From: a virus
Reading direction: 5' to 3' (one strand)
Length of the DNA stretch: 48,487 nucleotides
IMG/VR virus record: IMGVR_UViG_3300020205_000140
Coordinates: 1 to 48,487 of that record
Shown: positions 4,019 to 42,200 of the stretch, one piece after another
Numbering within the stretch: position 1 is the first letter of the stretch
Layout of the letters: each line of letters opens with the position of its first letter
The notes under the pieces: generated by a model
The model's database searches: none
What the model was told of the DNA's origin: nothing
What the model saw: only the letters and a program-made list of their open reading frames with translations
Made by a program: the position numbers and the translations under genes

Positions 4019-4024
4019 AGACAC

Positions 4025-12805: not shown

Positions 12806-12817
12806 ATGTAGTATAAT
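12789..12817 (+). promoter_or_regulatory. Perfect sigma70 consensus promoter, leaderless layout
   Basis: TTGACA (12789-12794), 17 nt, TATAAT (12812-12817). ATG 12824 follows after 6 nt (ACTAAT), the third case of this exact geometry in the window. No ribosome site. Confidence 0.93.
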
Positions 12818-12823
12818 ACTAAT

Positions 12824-21200: not shown

Positions 21201-24200
21201 CATTACAAGACCCAACAGTTGCAATAGACCCCGCGCTGGCCACAATTAAGACATTATTGAATACTTCTAAAAACCGTATCGCTGACAACGTAGTTGCATT
21301 TACCAGCAAGTATAAACCAAACGGCAAAAAGATTGTTGTGGCAGTTGCGGCAGGTAACTATGTTGAAAACAATCCTGTTATTATTCCGGACAATACAAGT
21401 GTGTTAGGAGCAAGCCTTCGTGCGTGTGATATTCGACCACTAAATGCTAACCAAGACATGTTCCGTTTACGTAACGGTGCATACTTTGGCGAGTTTACTT
21501 TCCGAGATGCTGTTGATGCCACTGGCGTACCAACATTCACGTTTGACTATGCTACTTCGTTTGATGATGCTAATGACATTTATACTAGTCGTCTTGGTTA
21601 TACTAATATGCCTATTAGTAAACCTATTATTACTGTATCGCCATACATTCAGAACGTTTCCATACTTTCTTTCTTAGGTGGTAACGGAGCAAAGGTCGAC
21701 GGTAACCTAGTTGAAACTCCTAACATTCCATTGATTAGAGAAACTGCTGAGTTCCCATTAAGTGGTCCTGCTCCAGAGCAAGGTAAGTCATTTGTTGCTA
21801 ACGCATTTACCACATTGAGCTTTGGTGGTACTGGCTGGCGTATTATTAACGATGCTTACGCACAGATCGTTAGTTGCTTCCAGATTTTCATGTTGAACGG
21901 TTCATATGCACAGTCAGGCGGATACTTATCTGTTACTAACTCTGCTACCAACTTTGGTATCTATGCGCTTCGTGCATCTGGTTATAGTCCAAATGCGTTT
22001 GCATTTGACAAAGGCTATATTGCATCAACTGGTACTAGCAATAGTAAACAAACACTTACTACACTGGGATTTGGTCGACAACCTACACAGGATTATGTTT
22101 TAAGATTTAGAAGCCCAGACTATAAAGTTGCTTATGACCTGTTGTTAGCCAGTAAACTTGCAATACAGAACGCAACCATTTCTTGGATTAACTCAAACTT
22201 TCCAAGTCTAACGTATAACAATGCCACCTGTTTTAGAGATGTTGGCTTGATTATCGATGCTGTAGCATACGATACATTCACAGGTGGTAACAGTAAGAGT
22301 GTTGAAGCAACTACTAGTTACTATAAAGGATCAACGTCTAGTCAAATAGTTATTACTGGACAGTTAACTGAGACTATTGCGGCTATTAACTATGCCAAGG
22401 GACTTGCACAAACTGCGGTTTCTAATAGTGGATTAGGCGCATATGTTGGTACTAAGTTTGATATCATTACTAACGGTCTTGCAGATCCTGCAGGGGTTCC
22501 AATATCGGTTGGCTATGGCAACATCGGCGATATTACTAACGATTTTAAACCTACTTCTCTCACTGTGTCATTTGATGCGGCAATTAGTATAGACCCTGCA
22601 CTCGATACCATTACTATTAATGCACACGGATTTACAAACGGTCAAGCAATTGTTTATCATGCAAATGACTATCCAGAGATTCCTGGATTAAACAACGAAC
22701 AAACTTACTATGTCAGTTATGTTGACCTCGATACTATTCGATTAACGTTTGACGAGGGCGGAACTGTTACTGTTGACATTAGAGCCACAGGAACTGGTAC
22801 ACAGTTTTTCTTCAAGAATCTTCAAGAGTTCTTTGTTGATGAAATACTTGAAAGTCATAACACCTATCAAGAACTAACTCTACAAGCTGGATCATATAAC
22901 TTTGTTCCAGGCAGTGAGATTACCGGTGTAACTGGTACGTCTAGTAACAATGCATTTGTTTATAGTTACGACCCAGTTGTTTATAAATTAGTTGTTAGTC
23001 TAAACAAAGTTACTGTTGGTGCAAGTATTATTCGAAATGCTTTCGCAGCCAACAGTACAATTAATTCAGATAACGGTGCACCACCTACAACAGCTATTGT
23101 AGTAAGTGATGTAATTGCAATTAATAATTTATACTCAGCTAGATTTAGCATACAAGGTACAACTGGAAACGGTCTACTAACTAACTTAGGTAATCTTCCA
23201 AATAAACAAATTTGGCTACATCGTCCGAGTATTGTTAACAGTTCTGGACACACATGGGAATATGCTGGTTCAGGTATTGACTATAATGCCCTACCACAGA
23301 ACGGTGGTCAAAGTATTTTCAAATACGAACAATACAGTGATTTACCGGGTCGTGTTTACTCTTCAGGTACTAACGAACTAGGCGACTTCAAAGTTGGTGA
23401 CTTCATTAAGGCTGAAAACAAAACTGGTAACGTTAGCTTTACCAATAAGGTATCAGTTGCACAGTTAGATGCACTACGTCTAGCAGTTGGTAATATTGTC
23501 ATTGACTTTATTAGTGATGACGTAGACTTAGGTGATAATGAAGCAGGTGGTGCAAGTAACAGTCGTTTAACAACACAGTTGGCTATCCGCACATTCTTAT
23601 CTAATAGACTAGGCGGATTCATTGACAAAGCCGTAAGTACTAACGCTGTTCCGGGTGCGGTTATCCAGCTAAACAGTTCAGGACAGATTAATCCAGACTT
23701 ATTGCCTGCGGTACGTGCGTTTAACTCTGCTAAGAGCAAGGGTTTCTATAGTAGACTAGCACTAGTTGAAGAAGTACCTGCATCTGATTTCTTAAACGGT
23801 GACATTGTAACTGAAGAATATGCCACAGTACAATTAACCCTAAGTGCGGCAATTACAGCGACTGTTGGTTCACTAGTTGTTCAAGCAACTACAGGTGCTA
23901 GTGGTTATCTAATTGGAGATGTGCTTGCTGAGACAGTTATTACTGTTGCCAGTGTAGGAGCATCTTTTAGTTCAGCATTTAATACTGTAGATAATCTAAC
24001 AGTGGCCGGTGATGCTACACCTTCTACAAGTAACGGAGTTGTAAAACCAAACTTGGTAGGCACTGTGGCCAGCAATGTGCCTGCAAACTTTGTATTGTCA
24101 AATGCCAACGAGGGTCAATATTTAAATCTACGTGCGGACCAAAGTTATAGTTTTACCAACGGAACTGTTGTTACCAGTGCAAACGATAATGTACAAGGCA

Positions 24201-27200
24201 CAGTTACATCCACAAGATTTGGAGTATTAGATACTGTAGATAACGGAGGCATTACTCCGGGTACATTATATACACCATTAACAGGTTCAGTCACATACTC
24301 CTATGTTGCACTAACTAATTTTTCAGGAAGTGGTCTTGGCAGCGGCGGTATTGCAGATATCACTGTAACCAATGGTGCTGTTACTAGCGTTGACTTGCGT
24401 AGAGGTGGTACTGGTTATGTTGTTGGAGATGTTCTGTCAGCAGCCAGCGGTACTATCGGCGGAACTGGTAGTGGATTTAGAATTCCAGTCACCGGTATCG
24501 AACAACGTGTATACCTTAGCTTGTTAGGTGGAGAAAGATTTACTGCTACTCTAGCAAGTCCAAACTTTGTTGCTGATAATAATGCTCCGGTAAAAGCTAT
24601 TACTGCAAGCGGGACAGCAACTAAAACATTTAGTGCCAACTCAATTGGCGGAAATGTAGACTACGTTAACAGTCGTATTACCGTCACTGGCCACACATAC
24701 TCAGATGGTGATCCAATAAAATATGTCAGCAGTCCAAACACTGCAATTGACCCGTTAGTCAATGCCGAAGTCTATTACGTAAATGTATATGATGCCAATA
24801 CAATTGAACTGTACGAAGACTATGCCCTAATACAAAAAGTTGTGTTTACAAGTTCAAGTACTGGTAATCATACTCTAACAATCTTTAATGCTAACATAAT
24901 TGATAATTCATTCTACTATGCGGCACATGGATTGACCACAGGTGATCCATTAAGACTAACAGGATCAGGATTACCATTAGTTGGTGGAGTTGCTATTGTT
25001 ACTGGTACATTCTATTTTGCCGGTTCAATAACTGCTAATTCGTTTACTATTCATGCATCGAGAAGTGAAGCATTGGCAAGTATTAATGGACTGGTAACTA
25101 ACAAAATTGTGTTTACTACTACAGGTAGCGGCACACTGACATTTACCAAACAAAACGTACAGGTATTTGGAACTGTTAATACCAGTTCAACAAACAAAGA
25201 CAACTGGAGCTCATTAAGTGCTACCACTATTGATGCGTCAAGTATTACTGGCGGTGTTATTAGTACAAGTCGTTTAGCTGGTACTGGTAGTGCTAACGAT
25301 GTCACATTCCTACGTGGTGATAGTTCATGGCGTACAGCCGTTCAAAGCATTAGAGAAGTCAGCACACCTTTGACATTTACTGGTTCTTATAATACCGTCG
25401 GTAGTAATAATTATTACTATGGCGATGTGCAATTAGATATTGAAAAAGTTGACAGCAATAGCGGAGACGACAACTATACTAACTTAGGTGTATCTAAATT
25501 CCGTAAGACACAATTTGCTGTAGGAACTAGCGTTGCGGCGGGCGAGGTTTACATTAAAGACGGTATAGTTGATGCAGGCACGTTAGATAGTTTAGACAGT
25601 GCATACTTCTTGAATCCTGCTAACTTGACCAGCAACGTGCCAGTTACTCGAGGCGGAACTAACGTTAGTTCGTATGCAGTGGGTGATTTATTGTATGCTA
25701 GTGCTACTAGTATTTTAAGCAAAGTTCCTATTGGTCTTGCAAATACTATATTAACCAGCGACGGTACTAAACCTGTTTGGAGATCTAGTCTAACAGTCGA
25801 TGGTGCATTAACTATTGGCAGTACTTCCGATACCGCGCTTATTGTTACTACAGGCGGCGCGAGTATCGGTGGCAGTGTATCTGTTGGTAAAAATATTAAC
25901 TTAACAGGTGATTTGAATGTCACAGGTAATGTAAACATCAAAGGATCAATATTAACTATTAATTCAACTACAGTTAACGTTGACGATAAGAATATTGAAT
26001 TAGGTAGTGTATCTACATTATCAGATCTATCAGGTACAATTAGTGGAAATATAGTAGCAGGACTAATAGACACTACCGGATTAGCCAGCGGAATGAGATT
26101 GGTTAAAACTACTGGTGCGGGTGCTTTCGGTGGTACTACAGTTATTAATACTGTTGTTAACCCAACAACAATTACTGTAACTCCAACTACTGCAAACACA
26201 GATGGTGTTATTACATTTGATGTATTAACTGCAACCAACTCCACAGCAGACGGCGGGGGTATTACCTTAAAAGGTACAACTGACAAAACATTCAATTGGG
26301 TTAACTCAACTAGTGCATGGACCTCAAGCGAGCACATGAATCTGTTCGCTACTAAAGAATATCGTATCGGTGGTGTGGCTGTACTAACTTCAACTAAAGT
26401 TTTAAACAGAACCCCAGGCGGAACAACTGCTGGTGACTATGTTACTATCGATGATACACAAACATTAACTAACAAGACACTAACTACGCCGGATATTAAC
26501 GGTGGTACATTAAGTGGATTAACTGAGTTAGCTGTTAGAGATACTAGTGCGGCGTTTGATGTTACCCTAACAGCTACTAGCTCAACAGTATTAGATGCTG
26601 GTAGAACATTAACACTCGACGTAGTCAATGCTAATAGAACTGTTAAGCTAGGCGGTAATATTAGTCTTGGTGGTACGTTAACTACCGCGGCTGCATTCTC
26701 AACAAGCGGTGCTTTTGCTACTACATTAACTAGTACGGCAGCAACTAATGTAACACTACCAACAACTGGTACACTTGCCACATTAGCCGGTGAAGAAACA
26801 TTTACAAATAAAACACTAACAAGTCCAGTTATTGGAACTATTGTCAATACAGGTACATTGACACTGCCAACAACCACAGATACTATTGTTGGTCGTACTA
26901 CTACTGATACATTATCTAACAAGACATTGACTTTACCTAAGATCAATGACACAAGTTTAGACCACACATATAATTTTGCAGTTAGCGAGTTAACAGCTAA
27001 TAGAACTATAACATTACCGTTATTAACAGGTAACGATACATTTGCATTCGTCGGGCAGACACAGACGTTTACCAATAAAACATTTACCGATGCTAGTACC
27101 TACTTCCAGGACGAAGCTGATAATACTAAAAAGTTACAATTCCAACTAAGCAGTATTACCAGCGGAGTTACTCGCACACTAACTATTCCAGACCAAAGCG

Positions 27201-29347
27201 GAACTATTGGTATTGTTGGTGATAGCTTCTATGTAGGTACTACACAGATTGCCAACAATAGAGCAAGTGCCGCACAGTCACTAACTGGCATTGACGGTAT
27301 CACTAGTGGAAGCGGTCTAACACTACAAGCACCAAATCAAGCAACTGCAAACACAGCAGGTAATGATGTTGCTTTAAAATCAGGTGCAGGGGCTGGATCA
27401 GGACGAGGTGGTGATTTAGCAATTACCGCAGGAGCATCAGTTGCTACTAATTCTGCTAGAGCAGGTAATATTACTATCACTGCTGGTAATAGTGCATCAA
27501 CTACTGCGGCTGGTAATGGCGGTGCTATAACATTAACTGCTGGTGACGTAACTGGAGCGAATGGAGGGAAGGGTGCGTTTATAAGCCTTGCAGGCGGAAC
27601 AGCGACCCTCGGTGAAGGTGGCCAAGCAAGATTTGGGTCCGGCGATTCAGTCGGAACCAACATTGACGGAGCAAGGACGTTTATATTTGGTGGCAATGGT
27701 ACTGGTACTGGTGTCGGTGGGCCGATTGATTTTTATACATCGCCACCTAAAACTACCGGTACTGCAACTCAAAATGCAACTTCAAGACTTGAGATAATCA
27801 ATACTGGTCGAGTTAATATCAAAGCAAACATTGCGTCAACAAGTACAACAACAGGTACACTAGTAGTAACCGGTGGTGTTGGCATTAGCGGCGCTGTATA
27901 TGCAGGTAGTTTATATGATAACACAAACAGAGTAGTAACAGTTGGTGATACTGGGTCTGTTACTAATACCATGTTAGCTGGAAGCATTACCAATGCTAAA
28001 CTAGTTAACAGTGCTATTACAGTCGGTACAACTGCTATTAGCTTAGGCAGTACAAGTCTAACATTAGCAGGATTGACTAGTGTAACAGCAACTAACTTCT
28101 ACGGTGCGGCTACATCATTAGCCACTGGTAGAACTATAGCAATAACTGGAGACATAAGTTACACCAGCCCATCATTTGATGGAACAGGTAATGTAACTGC
28201 GGCGGCAACATTGCCAACAGTTAATACCAACGTAGGAACATGGAATAATGTTACAGTTAATGCCAAAGGCCTAGTAACAGGTGGCAGTAACACAGCCTAC
28301 TTAACAAGTTACACAGATACCGTTACAACTATTGGTGCTAACAGCGGAGCAGGAGTAAGTGGTGCTGTTAACCTTGTAAATGGCACTAACGTAACTATTA
28401 GTCGTACTGGCCAGGATGTTACAATTAGTTCAACTGATACTAACACATGGAATGCCAATAGCTTAAACGTAGCAGGATATGTTGCCGCACCAGGTGCGGT
28501 GGCGAACAAAGTATGGAAGACAGACGGTTCAGGAAATCCAGCATGGAGAGATGATGCCGATACTGATACTAATACTGTTACAGCTTTAAGTGCTCGCAAT
28601 ACTGATGAAACGTTCTTAACTGGTAACGTATCATTTGTTGGTAGTGGGTCAGCTACTGTTACCAGAGTTGGCAATGCGTTTACTGTCTATGCTGATGTTA
28701 ATACTGATACAAACACATGGAATGCCAACAGCGTAAACGTAGCAGGATATGTTGCCGCACCTGGTGCTGTAGCAAACAAAGTTTGGAAAACTGATGCCAG
28801 CGGTAATCCAGCATGGAGAGACGATGCCGACACTGACACTAACACAGTTACTTCAGTTGGTGCTAGTGGATATACTGCTGTTACGGGAACAGTTACATTG
28901 GCTGGCGGAGGAGATACTAGCGTTACACAAAGCGGAAGTACTATTACTATTAGTTCTGCTACTACTGCTGTGTACGCGGCTGACTTGGCTGAGAAATATC
29001 AAGCAGATGCAGAATATGAGCCCGGTACAGTTTTAATGTTTGGTGGTGACTTTGAAGTTACAGTAGCCAACGATGATACTATTCGTGTAGCAGGTATTGT
29101 ATCTACAAACCCTGCGTACTTGATGAACAAGGGTCTAGACGGTGTTAATACTGTGGCAATTGCTCTACAAGGTCGTGTGCCATGTAAGGTCGAGGGCAAG
29201 ATCCGTAAGGGTGATATGTTAGTTGCCGCAGGCGGCGGGTATGCTCGTGCTACAGATAATCCAAAATTTGGTGCAATTATTGGTAAAGCTCTAGAAGATT
29301 TTGACGGTGAAGAGGGCGTTATTGAAGTAGTTGTGGGAAGAATGTAA
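18230..29347 (+). CDS. Giant virion / tail-fibre protein, 3705 aa
   Basis: The N-terminus carries two copies of a GQIRFN...FEGY.G.GW..LGGV unit (about 160-200 and 240-275). Five copies of a CxRDxGxIIDAVxYD module follow, with cysteines at about 426, 574, 719, 880 and 1334. A beta-helix-like region starts near 1029 (GKKIVVAVAAGNYVENNP). A middle part resembles other phage virion proteins (SNRLGGFIDKAV). TLTNKTLT-type repeats lie near 2745-2950. A 90-residue tandem repeat (from about 3405) and a C-terminal domain from about D3585 (DLAEKYQADAEYEPGTVL) close it. The C-terminal domain has a counterpart at the end of the 4715-aa protein. I infer a role in the distal tail or adsorption apparatus. 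The C-terminal domain may be a folding or cleavage domain, as in other fibres. No transmembrane segment or signal is evident. Confidence 0.88.
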   Translation: MSVISADAFRRIVLVDNLGTTQPVLRADDRNDVLTIRAGTGISIQKDEGDVNAGFTIYNTGEPGPVSIDDILEMPTIGERPQPAGVSWKPMEISKLTVQDYLPDNLTKTTKMFYTGHGVQAPTNGNLSLIVAGTGTVIVDGTSALRLPIGDSASRPGTTIGTVQAGQIRFNSEIPRFEGYDGRGWNTLGGVSSIDGGTTIAPDPLLPILNFNANGYLVATMSSLNTKIFSPGLVIPTGTTAERPPAIVGQIRFNTQNTQFEGYNGSGWSSLGGVRDIDGNTYIVPELGPGTNENTLYFVTNANLALTLDGSRLSLQNGRSLMFREGIASGNQTATIAPPTNITSSYTLKLPTSLGSAGSVLGIDGAGQLEFVNADSSAGSKINVSELFGDDNNDGFSRPVRTLKRALQIASGYVYSPTFIYAEEVCRRDAGLIIDSLGWDLVTGSNWRSLKSGLTYFNATASPVITSQRPQTIQAVSFLKRKVLDLVTAEPTVTSTLTSLSNEIIDILTNGTSAANAVSMPTPAGTSSGIENGKNLLLANTDFLVAETIAWINYQAANNISPFDKSISYDESKCRRDTGLILDAVGFDLALGTNYNAVTTGLAYQRYSYALLPAQKAVTLTAIQYAKSSVLALSGVSADATATTRAGAAFDEVIDIITNGVVQTATAANALVFPTPTGASPNKTNAKDQLIANKDFLKAEVIAWLNLNYPSVVFDSVLCSRDTGYIIDALCYDVLYGGDSASILVAQTYFTGSGAQVLPVFQRAATVAAFNRLSEIAQQVILKDAVLPTAGNAVSQDIINSAGTTTESNIVLTLISYITSCIAGNTTAGLPSITYPSVTWSDAGLQTAKSAIVSARSTIIDNTIIYINSSNPFTYDSAKCARDTAFIVNSVAYDLIYGGNSQSRDAGLKYYSNVTGETLIGSQNAQTAAAIERLRAVSIQVAQNVTIVKTSGNAQNQVSGSAGNGTAATIISTRLSEIIAVVGSGASYAPALQDPTVAIDPALATIKTLLNTSKNRIADNVVAFTSKYKPNGKKIVVAVAAGNYVENNPVIIPDNTSVLGASLRACDIRPLNANQDMFRLRNGAYFGEFTFRDAVDATGVPTFTFDYATSFDDANDIYTSRLGYTNMPISKPIITVSPYIQNVSILSFLGGNGAKVDGNLVETPNIPLIRETAEFPLSGPAPEQGKSFVANAFTTLSFGGTGWRIINDAYAQIVSCFQIFMLNGSYAQSGGYLSVTNSATNFGIYALRASGYSPNAFAFDKGYIASTGTSNSKQTLTTLGFGRQPTQDYVLRFRSPDYKVAYDLLLASKLAIQNATISWINSNFPSLTYNNATCFRDVGLIIDAVAYDTFTGGNSKSVEATTSYYKGSTSSQIVITGQLTETIAAINYAKGLAQTAVSNSGLGAYVGTKFDIITNGLADPAGVPISVGYGNIGDITNDFKPTSLTVSFDAAISIDPALDTITINAHGFTNGQAIVYHANDYPEIPGLNNEQTYYVSYVDLDTIRLTFDEGGTVTVDIRATGTGTQFFFKNLQEFFVDEILESHNTYQELTLQAGSYNFVPGSEITGVTGTSSNNAFVYSYDPVVYKLVVSLNKVTVGASIIRNAFAANSTINSDNGAPPTTAIVVSDVIAINNLYSARFSIQGTTGNGLLTNLGNLPNKQIWLHRPSIVNSSGHTWEYAGSGIDYNALPQNGGQSIFKYEQYSDLPGRVYSSGTNELGDFKVGDFIKAENKTGNVSFTNKVSVAQLDALRLAVGNIVIDFISDDVDLGDNEAGGASNSRLTTQLAIRTFLSNRLGGFIDKAVSTNAVPGAVIQLNSSGQINPDLLPAVRAFNSAKSKGFYSRLALVEEVPASDFLNGDIVTEEYATVQLTLSAAITATVGSLVVQATTGASGYLIGDVLAETVITVASVGASFSSAFNTVDNLTVAGDATPSTSNGVVKPNLVGTVASNVPANFVLSNANEGQYLNLRADQSYSFTNGTVVTSANDNVQGTVTSTRFGVLDTVDNGGITPGTLYTPLTGSVTYSYVALTNFSGSGLGSGGIADITVTNGAVTSVDLRRGGTGYVVGDVLSAASGTIGGTGSGFRIPVTGIEQRVYLSLLGGERFTATLASPNFVADNNAPVKAITASGTATKTFSANSIGGNVDYVNSRITVTGHTYSDGDPIKYVSSPNTAIDPLVNAEVYYVNVYDANTIELYEDYALIQKVVFTSSSTGNHTLTIFNANIIDNSFYYAAHGLTTGDPLRLTGSGLPLVGGVAIVTGTFYFAGSITANSFTIHASRSEALASINGLVTNKIVFTTTGSGTLTFTKQNVQVFGTVNTSSTNKDNWSSLSATTIDASSITGGVISTSRLAGTGSANDVTFLRGDSSWRTAVQSIREVSTPLTFTGSYNTVGSNNYYYGDVQLDIEKVDSNSGDDNYTNLGVSKFRKTQFAVGTSVAAGEVYIKDGIVDAGTLDSLDSAYFLNPANLTSNVPVTRGGTNVSSYAVGDLLYASATSILSKVPIGLANTILTSDGTKPVWRSSLTVDGALTIGSTSDTALIVTTGGASIGGSVSVGKNINLTGDLNVTGNVNIKGSILTINSTTVNVDDKNIELGSVSTLSDLSGTISGNIVAGLIDTTGLASGMRLVKTTGAGAFGGTTVINTVVNPTTITVTPTTANTDGVITFDVLTATNSTADGGGITLKGTTDKTFNWVNSTSAWTSSEHMNLFATKEYRIGGVAVLTSTKVLNRTPGGTTAGDYVTIDDTQTLTNKTLTTPDINGGTLSGLTELAVRDTSAAFDVTLTATSSTVLDAGRTLTLDVVNANRTVKLGGNISLGGTLTTAAAFSTSGAFATTLTSTAATNVTLPTTGTLATLAGEETFTNKTLTSPVIGTIVNTGTLTLPTTTDTIVGRTTTDTLSNKTLTLPKINDTSLDHTYNFAVSELTANRTITLPLLTGNDTFAFVGQTQTFTNKTFTDASTYFQDEADNTKKLQFQLSSITSGVTRTLTIPDQSGTIGIVGDSFYVGTTQIANNRASAAQSLTGIDGITSGSGLTLQAPNQATANTAGNDVALKSGAGAGSGRGGDLAITAGASVATNSARAGNITITAGNSASTTAAGNGGAITLTAGDVTGANGGKGAFISLAGGTATLGEGGQARFGSGDSVGTNIDGARTFIFGGNGTGTGVGGPIDFYTSPPKTTGTATQNATSRLEIINTGRVNIKANIASTSTTTGTLVVTGGVGISGAVYAGSLYDNTNRVVTVGDTGSVTNTMLAGSITNAKLVNSAITVGTTAISLGSTSLTLAGLTSVTATNFYGAATSLATGRTIAITGDISYTSPSFDGTGNVTAAATLPTVNTNVGTWNNVTVNAKGLVTGGSNTAYLTSYTDTVTTIGANSGAGVSGAVNLVNGTNVTISRTGQDVTISSTDTNTWNANSLNVAGYVAAPGAVANKVWKTDGSGNPAWRDDADTDTNTVTALSARNTDETFLTGNVSFVGSGSATVTRVGNAFTVYADVNTDTNTWNANSVNVAGYVAAPGAVANKVWKTDASGNPAWRDDADTDTNTVTSVGASGYTAVTGTVTLAGGGDTSVTQSGSTITISSATTAVYAADLAEKYQADAEYEPGTVLMFGGDFEVTVANDDTIRVAGIVSTNPAYLMNKGLDGVNTVAIALQGRVPCKVEGKIRKGDMLVAAGGGYARATDNPKFGAIIGKALEDFDGEEGVIEVVVGRM
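28442..28847 (+). repeat. Direct repeat, period 270 nt, in the 3705-aa gene
   Basis: The blocks beginning at 28442 and 28712 are near-identical over about 135 nt. Both encode WNANS.NVAGYVAAPGAV followed by ANKVWKTD.SGNPAWRDDADTD, with a few silent changes. The period is 90 codons. It marks a recent duplication of a fibre unit or repair by recombination between fibre genes. Confidence 0.85.
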
Positions 29348-29388: not shown

Positions 29389-30912
29389 ATGAGCCAATTG
29401 CTTTCCATTGTTGATGATAAAATTGTTATTGAGAAACTGAGTCTAAAATATCTAGACGGCAACACCACGCACGTCGGAACATTAGATATCAAGGGCGGCC
29501 TAAAAGTTGTTCAAAGCGTATCATTTGACACTGATCTTAGAGTACGTGGTACTTTAGATGTTGATACTATTAATGTTAAAAATTTAAATAGGGGAGATGC
29601 AAGTCAATTAGATGCATTTACCTTTTCAGCAGAAGCAGAGTCAGGATTAGACGGCCGCGGTGTAGTTTGGGGTGTCGGTGATACTTCATATCAGTTGGTA
29701 TTTAAAGCACAACCCCGCAGAATTTACTCAAGTGAATCTTTTGATATTAGTAAAAATTCTAAGTATCAAATTGACGGCGTTGATGTATTGCTAAAAGATA
29801 GTTTAGGCAATTCAATTAAACATTCAAAGCTAACTGAAGTTGGTACACTTATTGGACTAGAAGTAGATGGTAATACTAATTTAGGCAATACAGTAATTGT
29901 AAACAGCTATTTAAATCGTGTTGGCATTAACACTGAAATTCCAAATGCGGCATTTAGTGTTATGGAAGGTGGCGTTGAAATTGTTATAGGCACACAAGAC
30001 AACCGTGCTGTAATAGGGACCTGGGGCAATCAAACACTAGACATTATTACTGATAATACTTCTAGAATTAACATTCAAGGTAATGCAGTAACATTCGGCA
30101 GTGAAGCTAGCAAAAATGCACAGGTCAAGATTAACGGTACACTAACAGTAGACAGTATTGTCAGCGATGTGCGAGTTGAAAGAACTGCACCTATTGAGTT
30201 TTTAGAAGATAATAATAGCGGAGTGTATGGTAAAGGATTGATTTGGAGAGCTAAGGACGCTAGTGCTAGACAGTTTTTCTTAATGCCAAACCCAGAAAGA
30301 TTCTACAGCACAGAGTCGATTGACCTTGCCAGTGGAAAATATTTTAGTATTGCTAAGAATTTTGTTATTAGCGAAACAGCATTAGGTAACAGTGTTAAAA
30401 ATAGTAATTTAGAAACACTAGGCACACTATCAAATCTAACAGTCGGTGGCGATGTTAATTTAAATGACGCACTAAAAGTTGTTAACTCAGAAGCTATTGC
30501 TAATAGATCATTTACTATAGCGTCTGGAGATGTTACTCTTAAGTTAACTGCTGATAGCATTAATGCTAGCGACAGTATTAGAGTATTTGTAAAAGACACA
30601 CAAGAATTAGCTATTACTGATACTGGTATTACCATTGGTAATAAAAATAATACTGCAAGAACTATCAACGCATATGGTAAACTAGCAGTAAACATTACGC
30701 ATCCAGATCCGGAAGCCGCATTTAGTGTTGAAGGTCCAGTGGTAATGAATGGCAAGAAGTTTGTAACCACAGATGCAATGCCCGCAAGCGGAGAATGGAA
30801 CGTGGGTGATGTTGCTTGGAACTCTACACCACAGACATCTAGTTATATTGGTTGGGTATGTGTTACCAGCGGTAATCCAGGCATATGGAAACCATTTGGA
30901 CAAATTGCCTAA
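29389..30912 (+). CDS. Virion / tail-fibre protein, 507 aa
   Basis: The protein is beta-rich, with an internal duplication of about 90 residues. The first copy (about 85-175) has ESGLDGRGVVWGVGD, RRIYSSESFDI and LGNSIKHSKLTEVGTLIGL; the second (about 270-365) has NNSGVYGKGLIWRAKD, ERFYSTESIDL and LGNSVKNSNLETLGTLSNL. The N-terminus has DIKGGLKVVQSVSFDTDL-type strands, and the C-terminus (SSYIGWVCVTSGNPGIWKPFG) resembles a phage fibre tip. It lies just after the 3705-aa gene with its own late promoter, and probably assembles with it. No catalytic motif. A sigma70-type promoter for the QueD gene follows. Confidence 0.85.
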   Translation: MSQLLSIVDDKIVIEKLSLKYLDGNTTHVGTLDIKGGLKVVQSVSFDTDLRVRGTLDVDTINVKNLNRGDASQLDAFTFSAEAESGLDGRGVVWGVGDTSYQLVFKAQPRRIYSSESFDISKNSKYQIDGVDVLLKDSLGNSIKHSKLTEVGTLIGLEVDGNTNLGNTVIVNSYLNRVGINTEIPNAAFSVMEGGVEIVIGTQDNRAVIGTWGNQTLDIITDNTSRINIQGNAVTFGSEASKNAQVKINGTLTVDSIVSDVRVERTAPIEFLEDNNSGVYGKGLIWRAKDASARQFFLMPNPERFYSTESIDLASGKYFSIAKNFVISETALGNSVKNSNLETLGTLSNLTVGGDVNLNDALKVVNSEAIANRSFTIASGDVTLKLTADSINASDSIRVFVKDTQELAITDTGITIGNKNNTARTINAYGKLAVNITHPDPEAAFSVEGPVVMNGKKFVTTDAMPASGEWNVGDVAWNSTPQTSSYIGWVCVTSGNPGIWKPFGQIA

Positions 30913-30921
30913 CCATAATCA

Positions 30922-30949
30922 TTGACTTTATCTAGTAAGAATGTATAAT
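30922..30949 (+). promoter_or_regulatory. Sigma70-type promoter of the QueD-like gene
   Basis: TTGACT (30922-30927), 16 nt, TATAAT (30944-30949). The expected start near 30956 gives a leader of about 90 nt, long for this genome, with an AGCGG/CCGCT stem (30968-30972 / 30992-30996). AAGGAG lies before ATG 31047. I could not match the leader to a known preQ1 riboswitch. Confidence 0.7.
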
Positions 30950-31046
30950 TACTAGACACACAGGCACAGCGGACTTTTAACGTCATTCATCCCGCTTTAT
31001 AAACTCTGCATGTCGTCAAACTTGCTCATACATAAGGAGACTAGAG

Positions 31047-31532
31047 ATGGCAAATAAAAAATTCTTTTCAACAAAAACCTATAATCAAATAGGTCCAGTA
31101 TCATATCGTCAATGGAGGGCGGATAGCCACTGTAACTTAATTCACGGTTACGCATTATCATTTCACTTTGAATTTGAAGCTGACACGTTAGATGCTCGTA
31201 ATTGGGTAACTGATTTTGGTGGGTTACGCCCACTTAAAGACAAACTAGAAGAATGGTTTGATCATACACTATTAGTTGCACAAGACGATCCTCATCGCGA
31301 AACATTACTTAACTTAGGTAAACTTGGTCTAGCCAAAATTACAGAAGTTGAACGTACAGGCTGTGAAGGTATTGCAGACTTCTTATACGAATACATTAAC
31401 ACTATTTTTCTTCCAGACTGCGGTACAGCAGAAGCAGAACGTGTTTGGTGCTGTCGCGTAGAAGTTCGTGAAACTGGAAACAATATGGCTGGACGTAGTG
31501 GACATAGAGAAGATAACGAGTTCTTAGATTAA
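31047..31532 (+). CDS. queD: QueD-like 6-carboxytetrahydropterin synthase / PTPS family enzyme
   Basis: The 161-residue protein aligns with QueD. The catalytic Cys C29 lies in SHCNLIHG, D56 in VTDFGGL, D72-H73 in WFDHTLL, and E142 in VEVRETGN. QueD makes 6-carboxytetrahydropterin from dihydroneopterin triphosphate, the step before QueE and QueC in preQ0 synthesis. The family's zinc His pair HGH is HGY here (H33, Y35), and the first His ligand is also not in its usual place, although H28 could serve. I recall similar HGYA variants in other aquatic phages, so this may define a subfamily. With the QueC-like gene at 213 it points to deazaguanine synthesis. The alternative is the related pterin synthase activity. 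A promoter-terminator overlap follows. Confidence 0.82.
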   Translation: MANKKFFSTKTYNQIGPVSYRQWRADSHCNLIHGYALSFHFEFEADTLDARNWVTDFGGLRPLKDKLEEWFDHTLLVAQDDPHRETLLNLGKLGLAKITEVERTGCEGIADFLYEYINTIFLPDCGTAEAERVWCCRVEVRETGNNMAGRSGHREDNEFLD

Positions 31533-31543
31533 ACCAAAGTAAC

Positions 31544-31572
31544 TTGACTTAAATAGACATATATGCTATAAT
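31544..31572 (+). promoter_or_regulatory. Sigma70-type promoter of the UV endonuclease gene
   Basis: TTGACT (31544-31549), 17 nt, TATAAT (31567-31572). The start is expected near 31579, where an ATG (31578) opens a 10-codon frame overlapping the uvsE start. The promoter lies inside a terminator-like hairpin (31551-31587). Confidence 0.85.
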
Positions 31573-31592
31573 GCTGTATGTCTATTTTTTTG
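31551..31592 (+). terminator. Terminator-like hairpin enclosing the -10 box
   Basis: AAATAGACATA (31551-31561) and TATGTCTATTT (31577-31587) are perfect complements (11 bp) with a 15-nt loop, followed by a T run to 31591. It should end queD transcripts. The -10 box (31567-31572) is in the loop. Confidence 0.7.
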
Positions 31593-31610
31593 ATTGGTAG
31601 CTATGACTAA
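31578..31610 (+). CDS. Candidate leader peptide, 10 codons (MSIFLIGSYD)
   Basis: ATG 31578 lies 5 nt after the -10 box, so it should be at the 5' end of the transcript and have no leader. The frame ends at TAA 31608-31610, 5 nt past the uvsE ATG (31603), so its translation would deliver ribosomes onto the uvsE start. No homology can be expected for so short a peptide. Its support is geometry only. Confidence 0.35.
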   Translation: MSIFLIGSYD

Positions 31611-32631
31611 GCGTATTGGATTTGCCTGTAAATGGATTGATGGTCCTAGCCAGATCAATGGTATTAAACAAACGGATACTGCCAAACAGTATAATACTAG
31701 TACCACAACAGTAGCATGGCTTAAGAGGCAGGACCGTGCAGTAGCAGAACAAAAGCTATGGGACCTAATGGTAGGTAACATCGAAGCTGTACAAAAGCTC
31801 GTTGATCGAGTAGGAGAACTTAATGAAAATCTTAGGATGGTGCGTCTTAGCAGTGATATTCTCCCTGTTTATACCGAACCTACTTTTAGTTACTTTTGGC
31901 GCAGGCCTGACGTTATCGCTTATCTTTATCGGAACTTTATCCTTGTTGGGGATAGTGCTCGTGCAAGCAATACCCGTCTTTCTTTTCATCCTGGCCAGTT
32001 TACTGTTCTTGCTAGTATTAACGAGGGCATTGTCCAACGATCAATAGAGGAGTTTGAATATCATGCCGATATGGTCAGATACATGGGCTACGGTAAGGCC
32101 TTCCAGGATTTTAAAATCAACGTACACATCTCGGGTAAACAAGGCCCCCAAGGCATTATCTCTGCCCTCCAACGCCTTACCCCCGAAGCAAGAAACTGTA
32201 TTACTATTGAAAATGACGAAAACTGCTGGGGAATCGACTCAAGTCTCGAGCTTGAAAAGCATTGTGCCCTTGTACTTGATATACACCATCACTGGATCCG
32301 TACGGGAGACTATATCCAACCCTCCGACGATAGAGTTAAACGTGTAATTGATTCGTGGCGCGGTGTGCGTCCTACATGCCATTATAGTGTCAGTCGTGAA
32401 GATGTCTTAGTGGATCACGATCCCTTTATAATGCCAGATCATGCTCTGTTACTGGAACAAGGATACAAAAAACAAAGGATGCGAGCTCATTCAAACTTCT
32501 ACTGGAACGATCCAGTAAATGAGTGGGCATTGGGTTTCGTAGAACACTTTGACATCATGTGTGAATCTAAAGCGAAAAACCTAGCAAGTGCTAGGCTATT
32601 CGAACAGGCTAAAGAACTAGGTCTTATTTAG
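31603..32631 (+). CDS. uvsE: UV-damage endonuclease (UvsE/UVDE family)
   Basis: The 342-residue TIM-barrel enzyme shows RIGFACKWIDG at the start, then LSFHPGQF, NVHISGKQG, TIENDENCWG, LDIHHHWI and RAHSNFYW, which supply the His, Glu and Asp metal ligands of UVDE. It nicks DNA 5' to UV photoproducts and some other lesions, giving light-independent repair. I prefer ATG 31603 (MTKRIGFAC) over a TTG at 31594. No good ribosome site is present, so translation may depend on the overlapping 10-codon leader. T4 uses an unrelated enzyme (DenV) for the same need. Its 3' end overlaps the minus-strand histone-like gene by 8 nt. Middle codons use CTT/CTC for Leu more than neighbouring genes, which prefer TTA/CTA, suggesting separate origin of part of the gene. 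Confidence 0.93.
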   Translation: MTKRIGFACKWIDGPSQINGIKQTDTAKQYNTSTTTVAWLKRQDRAVAEQKLWDLMVGNIEAVQKLVDRVGELNENLRMVRLSSDILPVYTEPTFSYFWRRPDVIAYLYRNFILVGDSARASNTRLSFHPGQFTVLASINEGIVQRSIEEFEYHADMVRYMGYGKAFQDFKINVHISGKQGPQGIISALQRLTPEARNCITIENDENCWGIDSSLELEKHCALVLDIHHHWIRTGDYIQPSDDRVKRVIDSWRGVRPTCHYSVSREDVLVDHDPFIMPDHALLLEQGYKKQRMRAHSNFYWNDPVNEWALGFVEHFDIMCESKAKNLASARLFEQAKELGLI

Positions 32632-33218: not shown

Positions 33219-33247
33219 TCATATACAAAGACTTATTGGAGCATTCA

Positions 33248-36200
33248 ATGGCACGTAAAATAGTAGACATCGGCGTAGAAGGTAATGACGGTACTGGTGA
33301 CAGTATTCGCGAAGGTTTTAGAAAAACCAACGAAAATTTTAAAGAAATCTATGCTGTATTTGGACAAGAAGGTACCTTATCATTTTTAAGTTTAGGTGAC
33401 GTAGAGGCTGGACAACGTGAAAATTATTCTGCCATAGCAAATCAGTTACCGATCGTCAACAGTCAAGGTAACGGGATAAAGTTCAAACCTTTAGTGGGTG
33501 CGTCTGGTTTAACTATTACGTACCCAGAAGATCCTGCTGATCCTAACTATAACAAGATTGTTCTAACACAACAACGTGCTGTAACAGAACTAGGTTCCGC
33601 TGATGCGGCTGGTAAATTTGGCAACGCTGTTGACGCACAAGGATATGTCTTTGGAAATATTGCTGATCCCACACAAGCCAATGTATTAAATTGGAATACT
33701 CAATTTGAACGTAGTGGACAGACTGTTATTGGAGCTGAAAAGTTTCCAGTTCCATTAGGATTTGCAGACAATCGATATATTAATAAAGGCACAGTACCCG
33801 GTGAACTTGCTGATGCAATGGTAGGTTATCTTGCTGTTCCGGCAGGGGCCTCGGGCGATCAAGTGGCGCAGGCTGGTGAAACTGTTCTAAAAGCTGGAGC
33901 CACAATGAGCGGTAAGCTGTTCCTAAGCGATCATCCAGGTGATCTAGCAGGTGCAGGTAACCCAATTGGTCTTGATGACAAGCAGGCGGCTACCAAATAC
34001 TACGTAGATACAACAGCGTATTCAAGTAAAGTTAATTTGTATGTTAGTACTAGCGGTGATGACTCACAACGTAAGACTCCCGTAGGTAAAGAAGGACGAG
34101 CATTTGCATACGCATATGCTAGTCTAGTTGCGGCTTGTTTAAAGGCTGAACAACTTATTGACGAGAGTCCGTGGGAAACTGGTCCGTATCGTCAATTGAT
34201 TGCATACGGCGGTGCAAAATATTATTCAGAAATAACTCCAGGTGGTATTATCATCGGTGGTGGTTTAAACGGTACCACACGTATTAAGTTTACTAACGAT
34301 AACGGTAGCCCAGTTGATCAAGGTATTGCAAATAATAGAGATATTATTCCAGGTAAGCTAATAGTTGGACGAAATAGTGGAGCAAGAGGATTTATTGTAA
34401 AATATGGAACTATTGATGATACTGACTATGTTGACCTACGAGATGTAACTGGATCATTTACCGTCGGTGAAAACTTATTCTTTGATCAAGCTGTTAAACG
34501 TTTAGAAATTACTATTTTTATTGAGTCTGGTAATTACTTTGAAGATTATCCAATACGTCTTCCACGTAACTGCTCAATTGTAGGTGATGAGTTCCGTCGT
34601 ACAGTTATTCGTCCTGCCGATCGTGTTAGTCGAAGTCCGTGGGCAGGTACTTGGTTTTATCGAGATTTAACATTTGATAACTTAACTATTGCAGAAACAA
34701 ATTGGGGTTATCATTATCTATCAGACCCAACTAACAAGGCATCGACTCCAAAGAACAACAAAGATTTAGATGTGTTCTTATGTAATGATGCTACTATTGT
34801 TCGTCAAATATCGGCTCAAGGGCACGGCGGATTTATGATGGTACTTGACCCTAACGGTCAAATTTTAACCAAATCACCGTATTGTCAACAGTCAGGTTGT
34901 TTCTCTGGTTCGCTAAACAAACAGGCCTTCCGTGGTGGTCAATACGTCGACGGACAGGCAGGAAGTATGCCTGTAACTTCAGTTAGTACTAACTTAGATA
35001 AAACAGAAATTACAGTCACTGATGCATTCCGTGTACCACAAACTCCTACAGCGTTCTTTGTTAAAGGTAAACGCTATAAGATTGATACATTTACTGATAA
35101 TGGATTAGGATATCGCGGTGCAAGAGAACTACTATTATTAAACAAAGAATTTATTGTTGCAGAAACTATTGCATATATCGACGATGTCATTACTCCAACA
35201 TTTACATATGACGCTGTTAGATTCAGTCAAGCTGTGGGTTATATTATTAATGCCGTTGCATGGGATATAGTATTTGACAGTAATGTACAGTCTATTTTAA
35301 TATCTCAAGAATATTTTGTAAGAACCAATTATACATCTTTCCCTTCAGAGAAAGTGCAAACATTAGTTGCACTTGAATTTGTAAAAGAATCACTAGTATC
35401 ATTGTTATCTACTAACGCTACTGCGGCAGCTCGTGCTGGAGCAAAGATGGATGTGATATTACAAATTCTTACCAATGGTATTGAAGATCGTAATATATTA
35501 GATGCGACCTCATGGAGCTATAGCGGCACTACCATTACTGTAACTAAATCTAGCGGTCACGGGTTGAATGCAGGATGGTCAGTTAAGATTGTAGACGCTA
35601 CTGCTACAACTAATGCACCCAATGGTACATTTAATGTGGCATCTATTGTTAATGCCAATACCTTTACATATACAGTTGCCAATGCACCAACTGGAACTGC
35701 TGGCGGAACTCTTAGATTTACTAGTTCACCAGTTCCGATCAGATCAATTCCGAATCCGCCAGTTGATCCTCAAGCATTACCAGCCACTACCCTAGGCATT
35801 CAAAATAGTCTTGCACTGTTAATTGCCAACCGAGAGTTAATTAAAGCTGAATACATTGCTTACATTCAAACTTATTACTCTGATTTCCTATTTGGAAGTA
35901 TTGGCGTCACTGGTTACCTTAGAGATGCTGACCGAATTGTCAACGCAGTAATATATGATTCTATCTACGGTGGTACTAGTCAGACTGTGTTAGTATCTAA
36001 AAACTTCTTTGACCTTGAAGGTAAATCAACAATATCTACCGAAGTTACACAAATATATACTGCACTGGAATGGATTAGAGATGTTGCTAAACAAGTAGTT
36101 ACTAATACCCTAATTACTGGATTATTACAGGTATCTGTTCCGCAGGTTAGAGGAACTGCAGGTACCTCGACAATTGCTACAACTATAGAAGATAATTTTA

Positions 36201-39200
36201 ATTCAGTTGTTACTGCTGTTAGATTTGGTATCGATACACTTCCTACTATATCGTATCCAAGAATCGATAATGTTTCTACAAGTTTACAATCAGCAAAAAG
36301 TTTGTTAGATATAAATTCAGGAAATATTCGTTCAAATACTATTTCGTTTATTAATAACAAATACTTGTATGATGTGGCGGCGGCACAACGAGACATTAGA
36401 TTCTTAGTAGATGATCTAGCACACGACATTGTCTATACTGGTGATCTAAAAATGGTAGAGCACGGATTAGGATACTTTGTCGGAGATGCAAAACTTGTTA
36501 GCGATCCAGAGCGTCCAAGAACATTAGCTATTCTTGATTACATACAAGATTTAGCACTAGCTATTGTTGACAACGTGTCTATTCCAAACCCACAATTAAT
36601 CAAAGTTGGCAGTTTAGTTATTGGTCAAACTTACAAAATTAATAATCCCGGATCAACTATTTGGACAGCATTAGGTTCAGCAGATAATTTACATAATACT
36701 GTGTTTACTGCAACTGCTACAGGAACAGTAAATGCTACACAATTTGTTGTTGGTCGTACATATACTATTGTATCAAGAGGAACTCTACCTAATTTAACTA
36801 ACTATATCAGCATTGGATCTTCAAGCAATGCTGTAGGCACTTCATTCGTTGCTACTGCTGTGGGAACCGGTACAGGAACCGCCACACAAGGAACAGGAGA
36901 TGCTAGACTTAATAACGGCAACGACTTCTATAGAAGACAATTTGGTATAAGTCAAACAATTCAATTAATATCAAGCGGAGCAGGGCCTGCTACTATTGTA
37001 CCAAGTTTAACATGGGTTAATACCAACTTAGTAAACGCTTTCCAAAAATTACAAGATGACAAATCAATAATTCAAGCGGCAGTCATTACGTGGATTAATG
37101 ACAACATAGCATCAAACGTTAATAACCCAAACAGCATATGGTATGGCTTTACTTATAACAGCGGAACTTGCAGTCGAGATATAGGATATGTTATCGATGC
37201 TGTTGGCTACGATATGATGTTTAACAGCAACTTCCGCAGTATCAAAGCAGGCATGGCTTATTATAGAGGAGTAGTTAGTGCGGCCCTAGTAAGAAGTAGT
37301 CAGCTACCACAGACTATTGCGTCTTTTGATTATTTAAAAAATTATCTATTATCAACAATTACCTCTGCTACATATGGTACTCCTGCCAATACTAGAATTG
37401 GTGATAAGATGGATGTCTTTGCATCAGTTCTTACAAATGGAATAGGTTCATTACCTGCATTTACATTACCGGACCCAACAGGATTTAGTATTGACTACAG
37501 CAATGCTAGAAGATTAATTAGCGACAATAAGCCATTCATTATTGATGAAATTACTTCATGGATTGCCGCACAGGTAATTGGAAGCATTACACCGTTCACT
37601 ACTCAGTTCCAGTACGATTCAGTAAAGTGTGCTCGAGATGTTGGATATATTGTAGACGCTATTCTTTATGATTTAACTTATGGAGGTAACTTAGAAACTA
37701 TAGTTGCCGCTAGGGCCTATTTTGTAGGCGTTGAGACTACGTTAGGAGCAGGCCAAAAATTGCCAACACTTGCCGCATATGCTCGATTAAAAGAAGTTAT
37801 CGGCAAAGTAGCACAGGCTGTTACAGTACTAGATAAAAATACTGCAATTTTTCAAACTACCGCAGTAAGTGGCGGTGGTGCAGGTACATCTGTAGCATTT
37901 GCTCAGGCAAGAGTAGAAGATATTATTAAACAAATTAATATCACAGCAGTTGACAGTAAGCCTCAATTAGAATCCCTAATTAGTACTACTAGAGAAATGG
38001 TTGCTAATACTAAACCTGCGGGATATATATCTGCTAAAAACTTACTGGTAGCCAATCGTGCATTTATTCAAGCTGAAGTATTTCATTACTTAAAGAATAC
38101 CTATACATTCACTATTACTCAAACAACAAATAATCAACTAGTAACCGCTAGCACTGCTAAGATGAGAGTTGGCATGCCGGTTAAATTTAGTGGCATTGAT
38201 CCGTTTGAACAAACAATTTTATCAGCATCAACACCGTTATTAGTAGACGGTAAGTACGTAGTTACTTTTGAATTTGTAAGACAACCAGTCAGACCAGATT
38301 CAACAAAAGAATACGAAATTCAAGGAAATGCCAACGGCCTATACAATTTAATTGTACCAGTTGCTGTTGTACCTGATCAATCAACTACTGATACTACAAC
38401 TACCAGTATCACTGTAGTATATCCGTTTAATCCCGGAGTGTTTGATTTTGCTAATCAAACAACTATTCGTGTTTCAGGTGGCACGTTTGGCGGAGTAAAT
38501 CGAGATGCCAAGTATTATGTTAAGCAAGTTGTTAGCGGAACTAACTTTACAATCTCAGAAACCATTAGTGGTGGAACACCGGGGTCGGTATTTGCATTAG
38601 ACAGTGATACCGGAACAATGTATTGTGCGTTTGCATTTGATGAAGCTACCTGCAGAAGAGATACTGGATTCTTAGTTAGCAATATTTCAACAGACATATT
38701 ATACGGTGGTCGATATAATACAATTAAATCTGGTAAGAGATACTTGGTTGCAAGTTCTGTATTAGTTGTAACAGAACAAAGTGTTGAGTGTCGAGCTGGT
38801 ATTACTTATATTGATACTCTAGCACAACGTATTATTAACAATCAAGCACCGTTAGTAAATTATCAAACTTTAAATAATGTTAATCCTAACGATGTTGTTA
38901 CCCAAGTTACTGACACCAACGCCACTGGTGGTTTAGCGGCAGGTACTACTATTACCGGGTTAGTTCAACTAGTAAATGATATTATTTTAAACGGAAAACT
39001 ATGGGCTGAAGATACTGATAACATTCCAGATGCTGTTGTGTATCCAAAGTATGTTTTACAATTAAATCAAGACACCCCGTATAGTACAGAAGTATCTGGA
39101 CCACTACCGGATGAACTAGTTATGCAGGCAGCTGGTAATGGCAGTATGTTGTCAAATGACTGGACACAGTTAAACGACTTGGCCTACGGTCTAGTTGCTA

Positions 39201-42200
39201 CAAACAACGGATTAATTGAAACTGTTTCCGTGTTTACCTATTACTGTTGGACTGCGTACTACGCATGTAATGGTGGACAAATTCGTTCAGTAGCAGGATC
39301 TAATGCAAACGGAGAGTATGCTCTTGTTGCTGAAGGTAGCGATCCTTTTGAAGTCCCGGACTCAGCTAATCTAGCAGACGACATGCCACAGGTTGCAAGA
39401 ATTTACAAGTCTGGGCCGTTCGCGGCTGAGATGGCAAAAACAAAAACAACTATTTACATTGACACATTCAAATACTTGCCATATAACGTAAGTGAAATTG
39501 AAATCAATCACGGATATACTGTTGTTGACGGTGCTATCACTGACATCGGTATTACTAGATATGAAGTTGCAGGCATTGTTGATGCATCAGGAACATATTT
39601 CTCAACTAACCAACCAGTTGGCAGTGCCGCAACATTTAATAGTGGAACTGGAAAATATAGAGTAGAATTTAGTTTCCCTGCAAAAACTTATATTCCAGAT
39701 ACTGGAAGATATTATACTATTACCGGTAATTCAAATTCTGCATATAATAATAATCTTACAGGTTGGTTATGTGTAGCGTCTACAACCAATACTATTACAT
39801 TAGAATTTACTAGTGTTAATCCTGGAACATTTGGCACTATCACAGCAACTACTCTTAAACTAAAGAGCGGAACTATTCTTAGATTAAATCTAAACACTAG
39901 TGGCACTAACGATACTAGTTCTACAGGGCTACAAGACGCATTAACAGATAACCAACTAGTTACGATCAGACCAAATCAAAACTTTAAATTCTATAATGTC
40001 GATAACATTAGTCCAACACGACCAAGTACTGCATTAACGTTTAGAGGCGATCCATTAGATAATGCTAACGCACCAGTGTATCGTGTACTAGCATTTAATA
40101 CTAAAGATCCATTAAGCAATCCGATGACATTGACTTTCAATACTCTTGAAAGAGCATCTAGTTCCGGTAATGTAATTACTGTTGGGTCAACCCTGCCAAT
40201 ACGTGCGGGAATGACAATTTCAATACTAAGTGGGACTGGCAGTGTGTCTCAATCAACTACTGTAATTGCAGTTACTAGTGATACTACATTTACTGTTAGT
40301 CCTACACCGGCAGTAGCATTATCAAATGCAACTATACAAGCTGTATCGCCAACACAAAATGATATTATCTTAACATTTGACTCTGGTTATAATTATATTG
40401 GTCTAGTTATTGATCCTGATCATAATACATTAACAGAAGCTCAAGCAGGCATAGATGGCGGAAGTACTACTAGAACATTAGGTTCTAGACAAGGCGACCA
40501 ATACTTATCCATTAGAAAAATTAATAGCGCAAACGAATTACAACGTATACTAACTGGGCAAATGTGTTTTGCCTGGAACGGTCGTGTTCATAGAATTTCT
40601 AACTATATTGTTAGAACTATCAGTAGCACCGAAAATTACGGCATTATACAACTTAAAGAAGTCACTCTTGATGGTAGTAGATCATATCAAGACATTAGTG
40701 GATACGGTAGCACTGGTATTGCCGCTCCGACAAGACCGGGCGAAGGTTACAACGTTTCTGCTGCCTTATATAATATTGATGATCAGTTAATAACATATTC
40801 AATTAGCGGATTAGAAACTGCTCCTAATGCGGCTAGATTTACTGGTGCTATTTCTACTACTACATTAACTGTTAGTAACATTACAGCTGGTAGCATGTTA
40901 GTTGGATCTACCATTACAGGTATTACTGGAACTAGTGTAACTACCGATACTAGAATAACTGCACAACTAACTTGTTCGGCAGCGTCTATATATAGTTCAA
41001 CAGCATCAGGAACTAGTGGGTCATTTACTATAACATTGTCTGCAGGATCTGCTAATATCCTAGCCGGACAATTTGTTTCAGGTAATGCGGCAACCATTGC
41101 TGGATTACCAACTAATACATATGTGACTAATGTTAGTAGTACTACTATCACATTGAGTAATGCATTAACTAGCAATATCTCTACAACTGTTTATTTCTTT
41201 ACAGCAGGATTAGCAGGCACATATAGCGTTAACAATTCTCAATCAGTTACTAGTCAACTGATGGGTGTTCACTATACTGTATACGGTAATAGTAATACTA
41301 GCTATAATATTGCTGGCCCAATATTAACTTCAACTTATCAGTCATTAACTATTGCGGCGGCTAAGGCAACTGTTGTCGGAAGTGTATCAGGATTATTTTT
41401 AACTGTTAATTATCTAAGTGGTAATTCAATACAGCTTGGTCAAAATATCAGCGGTACTGGATTAAGTGCTGGAACATTTGTTGTATCACAAAGTTCAGGC
41501 ACACCAGGCGGTGTTGGTGTATATCTATTAAACACTGTTGCTAGTATTCTAACTCCAACATTTACTGCGGCTATCAATAATGGCGGCGGCGGTAGTGGTA
41601 CTATATTGGATGTTAGCGCAGTGGCTAGTGGTACAATTTTAGTCGGTGCTGACATTCAAAAGACTAGTGGCTCTGGAGTAACTACGGGAACTACTATTAC
41701 AGGTCAGCTAACTGGCGTAACTGCATTTACAACTACTGCTACCGGTACAGTTGGCACTAATATTTTAGCTGTGGCATCTGTTGGTACTCCACCTGCAGGC
41801 ATTATTGTGGGACAACTAGTCACTGGTACTGGTGTGCCTGCCGACACGTATGTTAAAGAAATTAACATAACCGGAATACAATTAACAAGAGTATTAACGG
41901 CAGCGGCAACTGGTGGTAGCTATATATTTGCCACTGCTGGTGGCGTTGGTACATACTCAGTAGATGTAGGCCAATTAGTTACATCAGGTGAGATGAAAGC
42001 ATCGTTTGTAGCAATTCCAGGAATATTTGGGCCAACGAGTGCCACACGTATTTTCCCAACGGAGAAACTATATAATCCTTCTCTAGTACAAGATAATACA
42101 ATTACTATCCGTACTGGTTTGAGCGCAGACGAACCTACAGACATTATTATTAATATTAGTACTTGCCGAGTTACTGGGCATGACTTTAGTGACATTGGCA

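Follow-up and report, generated by a model that had tools for sequence, protein, structure and literature searches.

A promoter within a terminator-like hairpin and a candidate 5′-terminal AUG leader upstream of a viral UV-damage endonuclease gene

The element at positions 31544-31610 of a 48,487-base virus record (IMG/VR IMGVR_UViG_3300020205_000140; the whole stretch analysed here, hereafter the window) lies between queD and uvsE and is best explained, with a probability that we put at roughly 0.6, as a cassette in which an RNA hairpin gates a 5′-terminal AUG leader whose translation leads to reinitiation at uvsE. Comparison of sequences documents the promoter, the covarying hairpin, the position of the leader AUG, its conservation before uvsE and the depletion of Shine-Dalgarno sequences; the exact transcript start, peptide translation, reinitiation, termination efficiency and timing are what we infer.

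Results

The queD-uvsE locus

queD and uvsE (Table 1) are flanked by very long open frames (18230-29347 and 29389-30912 before, 33236-47395 after) that look structural. The start codon assigned to uvsE is backed by homologues, and queD, upstream of the element, has its own Shine-Dalgarno sequence (AAGGAG). A homologue search in genome contigs returned mainly chromosomal Pseudomonas matches, and gp23 of the relative G001 is closest to large T4-like phages, e.g. Phosso and PA5oct. The promoter of queD (30922-30956, + strand) also has its -10 box (30944-30949) within a palindrome, TCTAGTAA/TTACTAGA, which carries neither T-run nor ATG and is kept with compensating changes in G001 (at 46037) and L146.

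Table 1 Features of the queD-uvsE interval (positions in the window)
Feature	Position	Strand	Evidence or remark
queD (6-pyruvoyl-tetrahydropterin synthase)	31047..31532	+	PHROG 2389 E 1.9e-40; Pfam PTPS 6.3e-15
-35 box TTGACT	31544..31549	+	TTGAC retained in most cassette relatives
Left hairpin arm AAATAGACATA	31551..31561	+	inverted repeat; covariation
Extended -10 TGC TATAAT	31564..31572	+	hexamer forms the apical loop in RNA
Right arm TATGTCTATTT into T-run	31577..31591	+	terminator-like end for upstream transcripts
Leader ORF MSIFLIGSYD + TAA	31578..31610	+	opens 5 nt past -10; start codon inside right arm
Leader stop / uvsE start overlap ATGACTAA	31603..31610	+	sequence; overlapping stop in 32/37 leaders
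uvsE / UvdE UV-damage endonuclease, 342 aa	31603..32631	+	Pfam UvdE 1.4e-34; PHROG 8420 2.5e-76

Promoter and hairpin

A 17-nt spacer separates the -35 box from the hexamer TATAAT (31567-31572), which is preceded by TGC and thus forms an extended -10, and the promoter matches 11 of 12 consensus positions. Its spacing, TTGACT-17-TGCTATAAT, is of the sigma-70 type and departs from the late-promoter sequence TATAAATA. Although promoter-like sites overall were no commoner than in shuffles across a 19-kb scan (60 vs 55.3), only three sites reached 11/12, among which the window promoter alone has TG. Surrounding the hexamer is a perfect 11-bp inverted repeat (31551-31561/31577-31587) that runs into seven T (31585-31591; five to eight in most cassette relatives), exactly as in the original prediction of a -10 box in the loop of an 11-bp stem with a T-run, every letter of which was found in place. 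A folding energy of -16.7 kcal/mol (z = -3.85; as good in 0/200 shuffles) was obtained for the RNA, whose apical loop is exactly UAUAAU because extra inner pairs form. A stable stem followed by a U-run is the composition of an intrinsic terminator, here with G-C at just two of the 11 stem pairs; a generic terminator scan, which requires three, therefore missed it.

Within an alignment of 28 cassettes, 91.2% of cells are paired and both partners have changed in 5 of the 11 pairs (16 such cells; 0/500 shuffles), a covariation signal that is abolished by sliding the partner arm. The columns of the leader AUG, located in the right arm, are invariant, even though G-U pairs arise by change at two of the three opposing positions. 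This comparative evidence supports promoter and terminator-like hairpin as one conserved, covarying unit.

Folding predicts that the leader AUG of the window is unpaired with a probability of 0.00 in read-through RNA versus 0.93 in promoter-started RNA. The AUG is likewise predicted to be paired in the read-through RNA of all long-stem cassettes and mostly open when RNA is promoter-started, burial and exposure being similar in nearly all relatives. The AUG of uvsE itself is predicted to be about equally accessible, partly open, in both RNAs and hardly changes, which places the predicted gate at the leader AUG. The proposal that RNA arriving from upstream hides the region is supported by the folding model for the leader start.

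Upstream regions of uvsE in relatives

A search for uvsE gave 80 loci in viral contigs, to which two DNA patterns added more; the 70 matches of one of these patterns include unrelated chance matches lacking promoter or hairpin, and these were excluded. Upon anchoring each uvsE by tblastn, 154 distinct upstream regions were compared, 108 of which contain a promoter. In architecture A, which is directly leaderless, a TTGAC.../TATAMT-type promoter, as a rule without a long hairpin, places its -10 box 6 nt (50 regions) or 5 nt (6 regions) from the uvsE ATG (56 regions). Architecture B, the leader type seen in the window, comprises 37 regions with an ATG 5 or 6 nt past the -10, the uvsE ATG 27-31 nt past it and usually a hairpin around it. 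Regions of architecture C have no 5′ ATG, a promoter that is farther off or absent, and a Shine-Dalgarno sequence.

Scored as a match of at least 3 nt to AAGGAGGT, a Shine-Dalgarno sequence is present in 14/58 directly leaderless regions (here including one promoter each at 7 and 9 nt) and 8/37 leader-ATG regions, compared to 12/13 regions with a promoter and no 5′ ATG and 45/46 regions without a promoter. The depletion persists after clustering at 85, 70 and 60% identity (p = 6e-13, 2e-8 and 2e-6, respectively). Among far promoters clustered at 60%, 7 have an ATG at offset 5 or 6, compared to ~0.4 expected from the other offsets. No other observation speaks as strongly for a genuine function of the leader AUG as the Shine-Dalgarno depletion together with this offset excess. 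In line with the premise that uvsE has no good ribosome site, a Shine-Dalgarno sequence is missing before uvsE in the window and depleted in both 5′-AUG classes.

Every uvsE-family hairpin cassette with a T-run has a 5′ ATG, and four further leaders of unrelated sequence (L055, L056, L068 and L248) share the layout without such a long hairpin. A chance origin of the ATG as a product of the palindrome is ruled out as a sufficient account for uvsE because leaders without a long stem carry the ATG and because Shine-Dalgarno sequences are anticorrelated with it; we keep this reading as a rival because of the dnaJ cassettes described below. Hairpin, 5′ ATG and Shine-Dalgarno sequence occur together in L072, and L281 has hairpin and Shine-Dalgarno sequence without ATG. 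The isolated phages NCTB, Erwinia Y3 and Dickeya AD1 all carry uvsE and do not have the cassette.

The leader and its overlap with uvsE

The A of the leader ATG is the sixth base after the -10 box, and the commonest +1 position is the seventh; with the A one base short of it, the predicted transcript start at 31578 is plausible only. Initiation at G 31580 (the eighth base) would remove the AUG. With its ten sense codons the leader reaches 5 nt into uvsE, and the stop TAA (31608-31610) brings the overlap to 8 nt. The 10-codon frame originally proposed was correct to the base; L146, with 88% uvsE identity, has the identical leader peptide.

Across relatives, the leader stop overlaps uvsE in 32/37 leaders, in two different frames, and falls within 9 nt in 36/37. 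Shuffled leaders give an overlap in ~66%, so the observed share is weakly above chance and compatible with coupling; we therefore discarded the overlap of stop and start as a demonstration of coupling. Nor is a strict overlap kept throughout, since several leaders stop short: in L012 (a close relative on a 167-kb contig), a one-T deletion leaves six T instead of seven and the leader, MSIF, ends 9 nt before uvsE, while the leaders of L120, L154 and L161 (the last with eight T and the peptide MSIFFDW) end 1-5 nt before it. Conservation in related phages had been proposed as a check for both the ATG and the overlap: the ATG stands 5 or 6 nt past the -10 in 37 distinct regions, and the overlap is frequent without being strict. 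A conserved function of the peptide was rejected as unsupported, given sequences as different as MSIFLIGSYD, MSIFIDCIL, MPFLITHYD and MFYTYLLFPC; what the leader peptides have in common is largely dictated by stem and T-run. In L095 (9082, + strand), a uvsE-type cassette precedes a different small ORF, with uvsE ~215 nt downstream, and its leader, MSIFIERNR, overlaps the next ORF at an ATGA.

Leaderless layout at other genes

Among 172 strong promoters from seven phages (1.0 Mb), ATG peaks 6 nt (24) and 5 nt (8) past the -10 over a background of ~3. A pattern with both boxes gave 18 matches in eight contigs and 0 in the reversed control, and the distance from -10 to ATG is 5 or 6 nt in 59/81 dnaJ promoters. 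Judged by sequence and comparison, the leaderless layout is general among genes of these phages. In the window, TTGACA-17-TATAAT-N6-ATG occurs on the + strand at 958-972, 4013-4027 and 12812-12826, where ORFs begin at 970, 4025 and 12824 (a 75-aa ORF, membrane protein phrog_2470 and a metallophosphoesterase, respectively); the other strand of the window has no exact TATAAT-N6-ATG site. In the tRNA region of L085 (G001; 37 tRNAs), perfect promoters at 3394, 3495 and 10051 have an ATG 6 nt past the -10 that opens tiny ORFs of 11, 2 and 4 codons, the third of which (ATGTTAAG..TTAACA) recurs in G012 at 28141.

Hairpin cassettes also precede dnaJ in related phages, most of them with neither leader AUG nor Shine-Dalgarno sequence. 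L406, L430, L444, L498 and L416 have AUA where AUG could stand and no Shine-Dalgarno sequence, the dnaJ cassettes mostly reading CTATACC compared to CTATGCC in the similar uvsE cassette L169. The AUG is thus not needed by every such cassette, and a hairpin promoter with a short leader devoid of a Shine-Dalgarno sequence can apparently work without it. Only G001 and G011 have an ATG in the dnaJ hairpin cassette, where the leader MPFFTNKIKYGLL (L088 at 18938 and L293 at 14289, respectively) has its stop 14 nt inside dnaJ.

A nested frame within uvsE

The +1 frame of uvsE contains, at 31823-32047 (+ strand), a 74-aa hydrophobic ORF (MKILGWCVLAVIFSLFIPNLLLVTFGAG...) with AGGAG before its ATG. No stop interrupts this frame across uvsE nt 222-429 in 135/168 homologues, compared to 8.7 (3-16) after synonymous shuffling; hardly any stop falls in nt 240-420 and many fall on either side (0.05-0.08 stops per 20 codons inside vs 1.35-2.14 just outside), and third bases are shifted to T in the region. 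The nested ORF has no PHROG match. These sequence patterns argue strongly that uvsE harbours a conserved overlapping gene, which likely encodes a small membrane protein.

Discussion

In the reading that we prefer, the element would act as a self-insulating expression cassette for uvsE, built from a host-type (sigma-70-like) promoter that is enclosed by an AT-rich hairpin and its T-run. RNA arriving from the preceding genes (queD and the long structural ones) would form the hairpin, leading to much termination and a buried leader AUG. RNA born at the promoter would lack the left arm and stay open, with its 5′-end at or within 1-2 bases of the leader AUG; this 5′-terminal AUG would recruit a ribosome by leaderless initiation, and the ribosome, having read the 10-codon ORF, would end on the uvsE start codon and reinitiate, substituting for the missing Shine-Dalgarno sequence.

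Alternatively, ribosomes might bind the short, open, U-rich and unstructured 5′ UTR directly (e.g. via S1) and start at the uvsE AUG without a Shine-Dalgarno sequence, the leader AUG being a mere by-product of the right-arm sequence TATGTC. The dnaJ cassettes with AUA for AUG, the partly open uvsE AUG in both RNAs and the near-chance stop overlap all speak for this account, which we nonetheless hold to be rather unlikely: the 5′ ATG is present in all T-run uvsE cassettes and in the four leaders of unrelated sequence, nearly all uvsE promoters without it have a Shine-Dalgarno sequence, and like stems show ATG before uvsE (L169) and ATA before dnaJ (L430).

Less probable still, the 5′-AUG might bind 70S ribosomes and protect or prime the RNA, raising uvsE initiation without peptide or reinitiation. 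Such recruitment would tolerate the observed variation in leader frame and length (L012, L161 and L154), and in E. coli ptrB a start-stop leader restores 40% (PMC4965119), but the ending of 32/37 leaders on the uvsE start in two frames, if weakly above chance, counts against it. Very improbable, to our mind, is a palindrome around the -10 that serves as a DNA operator for a dimeric regulator, with no RNA element at all. The adjacent queD and uvsE promoters do both have -10 palindromes, with compensating changes in G001, but the frequent G-U pairs in uvsE stems suit RNA pairing rather than a symmetric DNA site, and the right arm is followed by a T-run.

If gated leader translation with reinitiation is correct, the AUG would be exposed only on RNA born at the uvsE promoter, uvsE would remain silent in read-through of the structural operon, and a phage gene placed among structural genes would be seen to be expressed solely from its own promoter. 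The wider data suggest leaderless starts for many genes in this T4-like group, which is abundant and uncultured, and a rule of -10, 6 nt and ATG would predict both transcript and protein starts, which would be useful for annotation. Our broader proposal, that a 5′-terminal AUG is a clade-wide alternative to the Shine-Dalgarno sequence with the uvsE hairpin as an origin-sensing gate, is tentative, and we would give it slightly less than even odds.

In anatomy, the nearest known relatives appear to be the PeSL promoter/stem-loop cassettes of T4-type phages, reportedly described by Arbiol (2010) and Comeau (2014). We know of no report of a 5′-AUG leader ORF in a PeSL right arm. The uvsE cassette has the PeSL combination of an intergenic stem-loop terminator and an early-type promoter that overlaps it. 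PeSL cassettes reportedly come in several copies per genome and mediate gene shuffling; cassettes similar to that of the window precede both uvsE and dnaJ in one genome (G001) and other genes in L072, L281 and L095. The PeSL cassettes of T4-type phages are named in PMC4503421, and the likeness is that of a compact early promoter/terminator-like stem-loop between genes of the T4 superfamily.

In mechanism, the nearest known case appears to be the T4 e/I-TevI hairpin with a promoter in its 5′ part, one of several genes controlled by a hairpin and a nearby promoter (T4 gene e, soc, 49, I-TevI, segB and Aeh1 mobE; PMC3014915; PMC2988022). As proposed for uvsE, the read-through hairpin of this type hides a translation start, and promoter-born RNA without the 5′ arm is translated. 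Unlike in T4 e, what the uvsE cassette would hide is the start codon of a leader ORF, which should lie at the 5′-end of the RNA; a start buried in read-through and free otherwise is predicted for this AUG and not for uvsE's own. The T4 type furthermore couples a late promoter to a Shine-Dalgarno sequence, whereas the uvsE cassette has a sigma-70-type promoter and a T-run.

In translation, E. coli ptrB is probably the nearest precedent, with downstream expression of <8% when the 5′-terminal AUG is changed (PMC4965119). E. coli 5′-uORFs resemble the uvsE leader in that ribosomes are drawn to an AUG at the 5′-end, which can govern expression of the following gene (PMC4965119), but they retain the Shine-Dalgarno sequence of the main gene, which uvsE lacks. 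The full combination was not found in literature searches covering part of the literature. Leaderless mRNAs and ATGA-overlap termination-reinitiation (PMC9031893, PMC6728339) provide both steps that we invoke for uvsE, where they would be joined by a leader of ~4-10 codons inside a promoter-terminator hairpin. If this is true, three known devices (a promoter in a terminator hairpin, a leaderless 5′-AUG and termination-reinitiation) would be united within ~70 bases.
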